64,000 nt of DNA from Sulfuricella sp. GTDB taxonomy: Bacteria > Pseudomonadota > Gammaproteobacteria > Burkholderiales > Sulfuricellaceae. Location: positions 45,995-109,994 of the forward strand of contig JAGXQV010000145.1 of assembly GCA_018336195.1 (NCBI GenBank). The letters run 5' to 3'. A model generated the notes under the pieces. That model made no database searches. It was not told the DNA's origin and saw only the letters and a list, made by a program, of their open reading frames with translations. Positions 43,882 through 46,930 of this stretch are shown in pieces; position 1 is the first letter of the stretch, and every line of letters begins with the position of its first letter. The position numbers and the translations under genes were made by a program.

Positions 43882-44275
43882 ACTACCTCCCCCGCTTGCG
43901 AGTTTCCCTCGATCTATATTGTCGTTCAAACAAACATCAGTATAGCTCCGGATTCCGTTCCCATGGAGACCTGGTGCGTCCCCGGAACTTCACCGGCGCG
44001 GCAAGGCTGAACATGGGGTTGCCGGTATTTGCCGGACTGTTTCAGTGATAGCCACCACCGCCAATAGCTGCGGTGGGTGGAGACCAGACCGCAAACATCG
44101 CAGCGGGTCGTAAATAGCCATCCGGCTGTAGCACCTTACCCAAGGGAATCTCCAGTTTTTCACCCATATCGACGACAGGCGATGAAAGCCCGCCGGATAA
44201 TCATTTGCGGGCATCTACCAGGAACATATCTTGCGTGATTCGATAAACATCGCAACCCAGGATGAGTTTACTCCA
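43882..44275. other. divergent intergenic region, receptor/fliD-like
   Basis: About 390 bp with no supported gene. A TATACT hexamer on the minus strand (near 43945) is a possible -10 for the receptor. I looked for a cobalamin riboswitch because of the TonB receptor; fragments such as GGGAACGGAATCCGGAGCT resemble one block but the required order of conserved blocks is absent. Confidence 0.4.
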
Positions 44276-45652
44276 ATGAACATTTCGTCGTATTTCACCC
44301 AGAATTCCACCACCCCAGGAAATATCCCCACCGACGTCTATAACAAGGTCAGCAATATCATGCAGGGGCAGAGTAGCGCCGCCCCCAAATTGAATGCTGC
44401 ATTGAGCGCCGACAAGACCACGCTCTCCGGCCTGGGCCAGTTGCGGAGTGCGCTGACGACTTTCCAGGGAGTGGCGCAGGCGCTTCGCGACAAGAACCTT
44501 AATCTGTCGGCGACCTCATCCGCTCCCGGCGTGTTGACGGCAACCACGTCGAGTCGCTCGGCTGCCGGCGCATACGACATCCAGGTAACGCAACTCGCAC
44601 AAAGCCAAGTGTTGACTTCGAAGCCCCAGGCAAGCGCGGAGACGGCCATCGGCAACGGGACGGCGACGACCCTGAGCTTCGATTTCGGCAAGGCTTCCGG
44701 GAGCGCCTTCACCACCAGCACTTCCGCCAAAACCCGCACGGTAGATATTCCGGCGGGCAGCAACTCCCTGCAAGGGATTGCCGCCGCCATCAACGGGGCG
44801 AATATCGGGGTGACGGCCAAGGTGACTTCCAGCGGTGCCGGTTATGTGCTGGAACTACAATCGCCCAGCGGCGCGGCCAACAGCATGCGCATCGGCGTCA
44901 GCGGCGACGCGGCACTGCAGGGACTCCTGGCTTTCAACCCGGTTGGCGAGCAGAACCTGACGCAAACGGTCGCTGCGCAAAACGCCGCTTTGACGGTCAA
45001 TGGCGTGGCGGTGGAAAGTGCCGCCAATACCGTAGCCGATGCCTTGCCGGGCACCACCCTGAGCCTCGCCGCCAAAGGCGGCAGCAGGCTGACGGTGACG
45101 CAGGGTTCCGCCCAATTCGTCCAGAACGTCACCAATCTGGTGAGCAGCTTCAACGCCTTGAACGCCAAGCTGAGCGCCCTTAAACAGGGCGACCTGAAGG
45201 GTGACGGCGCGGCGACGCGGGTCCAGAATCAACTGACGCAGACCATCGCAGCACCGCTCACCTTGGCGAAGATGGGGATTACCGTGCAAAAGAATGGCGA
45301 CCTGGCTATCGATTCGGCCAAGCTGCAAGCCGCCATCGCCTCGGCGCCGCTGGGAGTAGCCAAAGCTTTCAGCGATAGCGGCAGCGGCATTGCGGACAAG
45401 TTGGTCAGCCAGATTCAGGGACTGGTCGGCGCAGCGGGAAGCCTGCCCAAAAAGACGGCGGCCATCAATCAGGAGATCACGGCGCTGAATACCAAGAAAA
45501 ACAGCCTGGAAAAAGCGCTGACCGCCCAGGCCAACGCCCTGGTCAAATATTTCTCGCAGCAAAGCACCCAAGGAAGTTTCGCCGATACGACGTCGACATC
45601 GACATCGAACCAGACCAATCAGGGACGCTCGCTTTTCGACTTTTTGACGTAA
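44276..45652 (+). CDS. fliD: FliD-like flagellar filament cap protein, divergent
   Basis: A 458-residue protein (ATG 44276; the ORF could begin at 44231). Order of segments fits FliD: helical N-terminus, SAAGAYDIQVTQLAQSQVL (FliD_N strand), a variable outer region with ALTVNGVAV and SLAAKGGSRLTVTQGS, and a C-terminal coiled coil (LPKKTAAINQEITALNTKKN, then LVKYFSQQS). FliD caps the growing flagellar filament. Odd points: it lacks the common GLxSGLDVxxIV start, has no ribosome-binding site of note, and is separated from the main fli operon by repeat elements and lies on the other strand. It could be a paralogue. Confidence 0.7.
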   Translation: MNISSYFTQNSTTPGNIPTDVYNKVSNIMQGQSSAAPKLNAALSADKTTLSGLGQLRSALTTFQGVAQALRDKNLNLSATSSAPGVLTATTSSRSAAGAYDIQVTQLAQSQVLTSKPQASAETAIGNGTATTLSFDFGKASGSAFTTSTSAKTRTVDIPAGSNSLQGIAAAINGANIGVTAKVTSSGAGYVLELQSPSGAANSMRIGVSGDAALQGLLAFNPVGEQNLTQTVAAQNAALTVNGVAVESAANTVADALPGTTLSLAAKGGSRLTVTQGSAQFVQNVTNLVSSFNALNAKLSALKQGDLKGDGAATRVQNQLTQTIAAPLTLAKMGITVQKNGDLAIDSAKLQAAIASAPLGVAKAFSDSGSGIADKLVSQIQGLVGAAGSLPKKTAAINQEITALNTKKNSLEKALTAQANALVKYFSQQSTQGSFADTTSTSTSNQTNQGRSLFDFLT

Positions 45653-45657
45653 TCAGG

Positions 45658-45824
45658 CTAGGAGCCTGTCGGACTTAATGAATCGAAGCGAAAAATGAGT
45701 GGATCGAAGACGGATTTGCACGGATTTTAAGCGAACAGTCGTTCTATTCGCGCAGAAAGCCGGGGAAATATGGACCGACCCACTCATTTTGCAGCCGATT
45801 TGGTTAACTCCGACAGGCTCCTAG
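45658..45824. mobile_element. 167-bp MITE-like inverted-repeat element, copy B
   Basis: The same family as 25956-26124. The ends CTAGGAGCCTGTCGGA and TCCGACAGGCTCCTAG are inverted repeats; internal blocks GAATCGAAGCGAAAA, AATATGGACCG and GCAGCCGATTT recur. The central hairpin differs (CGAACAGTCGTTCTATTCG-type arms), as if the two copies have evolved by compensatory change. It starts 6 bp after the fliD-like stop and shares its right-hand CTAG with the next element. Confidence 0.75.
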
Positions 45825-45975
45825 TAGTCAGTCAACATGAAACGAAGGGTTGTAGGAGCGGGCAGAACCCGCGATGCGCTATCGCAATTTGTCGCAGTGT
45901 TCCTGCCGACGACACAGGTCGCCTGCATGGCAGGCTCCTACCGATAACCGCCGTTTCAAAGTGACTGACTACTAG
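45821..45975. mobile_element. 155-bp inverted-repeat element with REP-like core
   Basis: The ends CTAGTAGTCAGTCA and TGACTGACTACTAG are perfect 14-bp inverted repeats that extend imperfectly to GAAACG/CGTTTC. The core holds GTAGGAGCGGGCAGAACCCGC and, inverted, GCCTGCATGGCAGGCTCCTAC, the look of a REP/REPIN doublet such as those mobilised by RAYT transposases. There is no coding frame. The left CTAG is the same bases as the right end of the preceding element. Confidence 0.7.
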
Positions 45976-46081: not shown

Positions 46082-46930
46082 CTATTTCCCCGACTTGCCA
46101 ACCACGTCGTGCAGGAACGGTGCGTATTGCAGCCAGTTTTCCAGGGGACCGGCGTGGGAAAACACCACCATGCCATGCTTGTCGAGAACGTAGGTGGTGG
46201 GAAAGACCATGGCGATATCCCGATCACGGATTTTGCCTCCGCCGGCGAGTTTCAGATATTCGTCCTCGGAACCTTTCAGGCCACTATCGTAGAGCGGCAA
46301 GTCGAGCTGTTGGGCCGCCAGCCAGCGGCGCGCAGCGGCGGTGCTTTCGCGTACCGGTAGGAGGATGAAAGCGATATCCTGGCTGCCCTTGAGTTGGGCG
46401 ACCAGTTTTTGCAGGTCCGGCAACTCGCGTTTGCACGGATTGCACCACGAACCCCAGAAGTGCACGACGACGGCCTTGCCGCGCAGAGCCGCGAGTTTAA
46501 AGGGCTTCCCGTTGGCGTCGGCAAATGCCAGGTCGGGAAAGCGCATACCGCGCTTTTTCCCGGTGGGCGCCTGGGCGGCTTGGCTGCGGTTTTTATATGG
46601 TCCCCACAGGGTCGCCCAGGACACCGCGTCGAAAACCCGTTGCTCATCGACCGCGTAAGGGACGCAGGGAATTTCACTATGTTTCCCGCAGGCATCCAGG
46701 GCTACGGCGAGGGCCGTATCCGCTGAAACCTGCTCGGCAGCCCAACCCCATGCCCCCCCCGGTGCGATGGCGAAGGCGCGGTGCAGGTCGGCCTGCAAAA
46801 ATCCCCCGACGTAAGTTTCGCGCGCCGCTTCCCCGACATGGGGAATGGCTTGGGCATCGGTCAAGCTGGGCGAGGCGGCCTGCGCCGAAGTACTGGCGAG
46901 CAGTGCCGCCAGGAGGATATTAATCCACAT
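46082..46930 (-). CDS. TlpA/ResA-like thioredoxin with extra N-terminal domain
   Basis: A 282-residue exported protein: signal peptide MWINILLAALLASTSAQA, an N-terminal domain of ~90 residues with AFAIAPGGAWGWAAEQ and ACGKHSEIPCVPYAVD (two cysteines; like small DUF4189-type domains), then a TlpA-like thioredoxin fold from ~135 (FPDLAFADANGKPFKLAAL, VVHFWGSWCNPCKRELPDL with catalytic CNPC). It likely reduces or makes disulfides in the periplasm. Its ATG directly abuts the fliJ stop (TGA then ATG), so it is translationally coupled to fliJ, in the slot where fliK often lies. Confidence 0.85.
   Translation of the reverse strand: MWINILLAALLASTSAQAASPSLTDAQAIPHVGEAARETYVGGFLQADLHRAFAIAPGGAWGWAAEQVSADTALAVALDACGKHSEIPCVPYAVDEQRVFDAVSWATLWGPYKNRSQAAQAPTGKKRGMRFPDLAFADANGKPFKLAALRGKAVVVHFWGSWCNPCKRELPDLQKLVAQLKGSQDIAFILLPVRESTAAARRWLAAQQLDLPLYDSGLKGSEDEYLKLAGGGKIRDRDIAMVFPTTYVLDKHGMVVFSHAGPLENWLQYAPFLHDVVGKSGK

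Follow-up and report, generated by a model that had tools for sequence, protein, structure and literature searches.

Two MITEs with ends of different transposon families adjoin through a common CTAG in a Sulfuricella genome

In the window, a 64,000-nucleotide stretch of a Sulfuricella sp. draft genome, two MITEs of unrelated families lie end to end and have one CTAG in common. We put the probability at about 0.88 that they adjoin through a common CTAG target, the second insertion having reused the CTAG of the first. The two elements, designated A and B, and their surroundings are arranged as follows (coordinates are those of the window).

45658..45824, + strand: element A, predicted IS1182-type MITE, 167 bp with both CTAGs; ends as in IS1182 elements L336, L341, L360-L363 and L365
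45658..45678, + strand: left terminal inverted repeat of A with flanking CTAG
45804..45824, - strand: right terminal inverted repeat of A with CTAG
45821..45824, strand not applicable: CTAG common to both elements, closing A on the right and opening B on the left
45821..45975, + strand: element B, predicted IS630-type MITE, 155 bp with both CTAGs; its ends bracket IS630 transposases (L175, L249, L313)
45821..45844, + strand: left terminal inverted repeat of B
45952..45975, - strand: right terminal inverted repeat of B with CTAG
45852..45941, + strand: core of B, a REPIN-like REP doublet with GTAGGAGC...GCTCCTAC, resembling the REP array around the RAYT gene in L308
25956..26124, + strand: further member of the A family within the window, 75% identical and bounded by CTAG on each side
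44291..45652, + strand: left neighbour, fliD-like gene (part used as query; the listed frame begins at 44231), with its stop codon shortly 5' of A
46082..46930, - strand: right neighbour, thioredoxin-like (redoxin) gene, convergent

The arms of A are 21 nt long and 95% complementary, and those of B are 24 nt long and 88% complementary. Within the pair CTAG starts at 45658, 45821 and 45972, the middle one belonging to both elements, while GTAGGAGC and GCTCCTAC of the core lie at 45852 and 45934, respectively. The original prediction had described a 167-bp and a 155-bp element abutting on one CTAG, and both the coordinates and the arms were confirmed. CTAG is rare in the window, with 33 occurrences against 84 expected from dinucleotide shuffles. 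Viral contigs scanned with the fliD protein contained no relative, and Rfam gave no match above the gathering score.

Other copies of each element, which the original prediction had proposed to look for, are present in the genome of origin (G000; a 4.77 Mb draft in 211 contigs with 7% contamination) in numbers above chance: A has 16 matches and B has 18, counting fragments and both strands of some copies. A is thus a multicopy element, short and non-coding. Copies without CTAG ends, named beforehand as the outcome that would speak against CTAG targeting, did not prevail in either family, as most full-length copies of A and B in this genome end in CTAG on both sides. At their four terminal positions, the 94 ends of 47 A pairs have C in 88, T in 84, A in 88 and G in 93 cases; these counts do not separate TA from CTAG as the duplicated unit, because the target is invariant. 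Five A copies (L006, L008, L010, L011 and L013) have small hairpin inserts of at least two kinds inside them, and A relatives of 55-58 bp, scarcely more than the two ends, occur in L012 (1501-1558) and L275 (542-596). When IMG/VR was scanned with the end patterns, that of B gave 26 stretches, mostly chance matches, with a B-like continuation in one (L133), and that of A gave four A-type ends, each about 250 bases or less from an end of its stretch. Flanks were also joined at 130 A/B sites in a search for MITEs that interrupt genes; 15 long frames resulted, none of them convincing by eye.

Ends of the A type were found beside IS1182 transposase genes. At one locus (L341) some 80 bases separate the left end of A from the IS1182 N-terminus that follows it (NF033551, E = 8.5e-21). 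At another (L336) a transposase gene is followed by the right end of A, matched exactly; this transposase scores 268 bits, just short of the cut-off of 270, and, lying near the contig start, is without its N-terminal part. Six IS1182 copies on plasmids were examined, and in five of them A-type ends are bordered by CTAG left and right, namely in ISAzo1 and the copies from P. putida, Persicobacter, Polaromonas and Methylobacter; the sixth, from Simplicispira, has no A-type ends at CTAG. By these similarities, A is a predicted MITE with IS1182-family ends of the ISAzo1 group. An earlier assignment of A as an IS630-type MITE, suggested by the resemblance of its ends to those of B, was dropped when IS1182 genes were found beside A-type ends. 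The genome of origin contains IS1182 genes, and none of its IS1182 loci that were fetched has A-type ends nearby. Such genes occur in L330, L346, L354 and L358, with a B-like end near those of L346 and L358. A search by end pattern for an autonomous A element in 11 relatives gave just MITE-sized pairs and single ends.

The insertion rule was read from empty sites. For two IS1182 copies on Pseudomonas plasmids, the flanks were joined over one CTAG (query of 504 bases) and matching empty sites were found: at least 80% of the query was covered in 112 of the 114 records hit for one copy and in 103 of the 106 for the other, and the best match was 100% across its whole length. These matches show that there is one CTAG before insertion and one on each side afterwards. 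The rule is shown for A-type IS1182 elements at two empty sites, the single-CTAG site being that of two related IS1182 elements rather than of A itself. The expectation of empty sites in relatives was borne out by these two plasmid sites and not by two further joined queries, from P. putida (IS1182) and Polaromonas (IS630), which gave no empty site. The accessible part of PMC3281130 gives a 4-bp duplication for ISPse1, an IS1182 element of Paracoccus.

The outer ends of B, in turn, enclose IS630 genes. In L175 and L249 roughly 1.2 kb containing broken IS630 genes lies between them, that of L249 matching DDE_3 (E = 5.5e-27) and NF033545 (131 bits, cut-off 100), and the complete genome G221 holds near-identical IS630 copies with ends CTAGTAGCCAGTCAC, 1209 bp long in the copy that was measured. 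When named genomes were scanned, CTAGTAGTCAGTCANNNTGAA occurred in at least 116 stretches, and the matches listed are mostly from Betaproteobacteria and Methylobacter. The L175 element is inserted in a DUF1016/YhcG gene. Rejoining its flanks over one CTAG yields a single 370-aa frame in which PF17761 and PF06250 are both complete, and this one interrupted gene supports the same insertion rule for B-type IS630 elements. CTAG is likewise the site of related IS630 elements whose ends are different. According to the accessible part of PMC2170065, members of the IS630 family insert at TA with duplication of TA and about 30 bp per end is sufficient; transposition of IS630 to the TA of CTAG appears in its reference list. 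B is, to judge from its sequence, a MITE with IS630-family ends. A PF13358 search of the draft assembly found no IS630 transposase. Another candidate, L325, was considered as an IS630 element with a B end and was discarded, as there is really half a MITE at that place.

Taken together, the CTAG-ended copies and the IS1182 and IS630 parents uphold the proposal that these are different families that both target CTAG. We propose that the DDE transposases of two unrelated families, IS1182 in the case of A and IS630 in that of B, would both insert at CTAG, and that each insertion would leave CTAG on both sides. The later insertion could then have used the CTAG that flanked the earlier one, leaving a single CTAG to serve A and B. 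There would be one common CTAG because one element inserted in the other's flanking CTAG, which agrees with the earlier idea that one lies exactly in the other's end. Such a transposase may have mobilised each MITE in trans; we infer the movers from relatives because no transposase with matching ends was found in the draft genome. The REP doublet would ride as cargo between the IS630 ends of B. This account pins down the insertion rule of two common types of MITE, and the shared CTAG follows plainly from it.

Junctions of this kind recur. The genome of origin has a further A/B pair on one CTAG (C60:18670-18962), in which A is reversed and of a different subtype, and an A-B junction is also present in the related genome G006 (contig C9, L063). 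One locus at which L063 and L176 have a common flank suggests that G006 is probably the MAG FK3.bin53. Elsewhere, single CTAGs join A to A in G009 and B to B at several further loci. If CTAGs were chosen at random, 20-30 elements in the genome of origin would be expected to form 0.2-0.4 junctions, against 2 observed (P for at least 2, 0.01-0.06), and 60-110 elements in a G006-like genome would form about 3-9; these expectations are rough, using the CTAG density of the window and assumed element numbers. The slight excess over chance makes a mild extra preference for the A/B junction in the genome of origin possible. Since CTAG is scarce, recurrent junctions need no special rule.

That A and B abut twice in one genome, and that B-type elements of 123 bp and 145 bp adjoin at several loci in G006, might also be expected if A and B were a single composite element moved together via its outer ends. 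Such an origin is highly improbable and largely refuted, in that the two A/B junctions involve different A subtypes in opposite orientations, A and B copies in the genome of origin are mostly solitary, and the G006 pair occurs in more than one relative orientation. Separate insertion of A and B at a common CTAG is thus the preferred reading. As to their order, A diverges from its consensus by 3.6% (five copies aligned) and B by 7.1% (nine aligned), which hints that B may be the older here, the families being small; the hope that the junction would date the insertions was not realized.

A REP doublet had been predicted in the second element, and the core of B is indeed an inverted pair of GTAGGAGC hairpins tagged with GTAG. 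The genome of origin encodes a RAYT of 153 aa (NF047646, 149.5 bits, cut-off 80), located at L308 380-1720 among tandemly arrayed REP doublets that are similar and not identical to the core of B. A second RAYT-like gene scores more weakly (81.5 bits). The original prediction had pointed to RAYT or IS5-type transposases with matching ends: the RAYT is present, whereas the outer ends proved to be of IS630 type in B and of IS1182 type in A. Copies of the core without the outer repeats occur in L028 and L029, where they match B for some six to eight bases past the core; because these bases are common with B, they are possibly decayed B copies. Bare cores of this kind, together with REP core, RAYT and REP array in one genome, would also fit a plain RAYT-mobilised REPIN/BIME whose outer repeats belong to the REP unit itself. 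We regard this as extremely unlikely, as the outer repeats of B enclose IS630 transposase genes and, in other genomes, about 15 unrelated interiors, and as the REP array of the RAYT is without these repeats, which give B its CTAGTAGTCAGTCA ends. The RAYT was accordingly rejected as the mover of B's outer ends. The core of B is better read, by sequence comparison, as a RAYT-type REP doublet carried as cargo between IS630 ends.

The interiors of B-ended elements are diverse. When 93 such elements with paired ends were compared, duplicates having been removed by their flanks, the interiors formed 18 clusters, of which blastn links three pairs, leaving the roughly 15 unrelated interiors; hosts include Betaproteobacteria and others. 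Most representatives (15 of 19) fold better than shuffles (z <= -2.8) and four do not, and many interiors match sequences elsewhere that are without B ends, as in L188 and L242. Each of the first 14 end bases is conserved in 36-38 of 38 B ends, a figure biased by the many loci found with the same pattern; B copies found by BLAST are free of that selection.

Cores also occur between other ends. The 145-bp B-type element of G006 has a core that is also found in that genome between very different ends, CTAGGGAAGCGCTGATTA (L216; also L292 in another genome). These ends constitute a third CTAG-bounded type, seen on elements of about 1.2 kb (L351 1388-2585 and L352 829-2050), and a 329-aa frame in L351 is taken for a putative IS5-like transposase. 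MITEs of 117-118 bp with CTAGGGAAGCGCTGATTA ends lie at L216 6661-6778, L292 565-682 and L238 3754-3870, and two of the three share their core with a B-type MITE. At L242 931-1103 ends of a fourth type, AGGGCAATCGCACTA, surround a CCCCCTTTG core that elsewhere lies inside B-type ends.

In three B copies of the genome of origin (L017, L019 and L022) the first 13 bases of A, CTAGGAGCCTGTC, replace those of B, and the switch point is exactly the GTC common to A and B. At its opposite side L022 additionally has a left half of A, which places B cargo between A-type ends. These copies show blocks that have moved between the A and B families. A's terminal bases on B copies, and the CTAG-N6-GTC with which both elements begin, could alternatively mean that a single transposase serves A and B, their ends being variants of one type. 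This is very unlikely, given that the parents come from different families, IS1182 versus IS630, and that the swap stops exactly at the common GTC, as expected from recombination.

We tentatively suggest, at somewhat less than even odds, a modular make-up in which the shells of these MITEs would be interchangeable ends of unrelated CTAG-targeting DDE transposons (IS630, IS1182 and IS5-like) that repeatedly capture host hairpin repeats, REPINs among them; shells brought together by abutting insertions at CTAG would exchange cargo and terminal blocks via short identities such as GTC/GAC, and small repeats would be spread by several transposase families, not only by RAYTs. If this is true, REP-type repeats have a route to new places and genomes, and annotation of repeat families by end or core alone is misleading. 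Among open-access papers we found no description of these chimeric elements. The common CTAG is ordinary; the chimeric, modular make-up of the MITEs is the less ordinary part.

Several known systems invite comparison. In IS1182 elements of the ISAzo1 group (Aromatoleum aromaticum EbN1) the ends are of the A type and each carries CTAG, and ISAzo1 is the nearest annotated relative (73%) of the transposase beside A ends; unlike them, A is 167 bp long and codes for nothing. IS630/Tc1-mariner elements (IS630, ISY100 and ISPna1), with a TA target in the accessible part of PMC2170065, resemble B in that B ends bracket NF033545 transposases and in CTAG insertion, whereas in B, at 155 bp, a REP core replaces the transposase gene. 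MITEPsy1 of Pseudomonas syringae is likewise a MITE, with CTAG or YTAA and a 4-nt duplication; it differs from A and B in its IS5-type ends (ISPsy2) and its length of 100 nt, and the accessible part of PMC3189936 mentions no REP core. Correia/NEMIS and RUP elements are, like A and B, short with inverted-repeat ends. The accessible text of PMC3049150 describes RUP ends like those of IS630-Spn1 and Correia internal sequences between 26-bp repeats; in contrast, the interiors between B-type ends are unrelated between families, and some are repeats themselves. Finally, REPINs and BIMEs with RAYTs share with the core of B the GTAGGAGC hairpin doublet and a RAYT plus REP array in the genome. The part of PMC3733652 available describes some RAYTs with REPs adjoined to unrelated stem-loops, and RAYTs with unrelated TIRs, which is not the arrangement of B. 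Unlike REPINs and BIMEs, the core of B lies inside DDE-transposon ends and CTAG.
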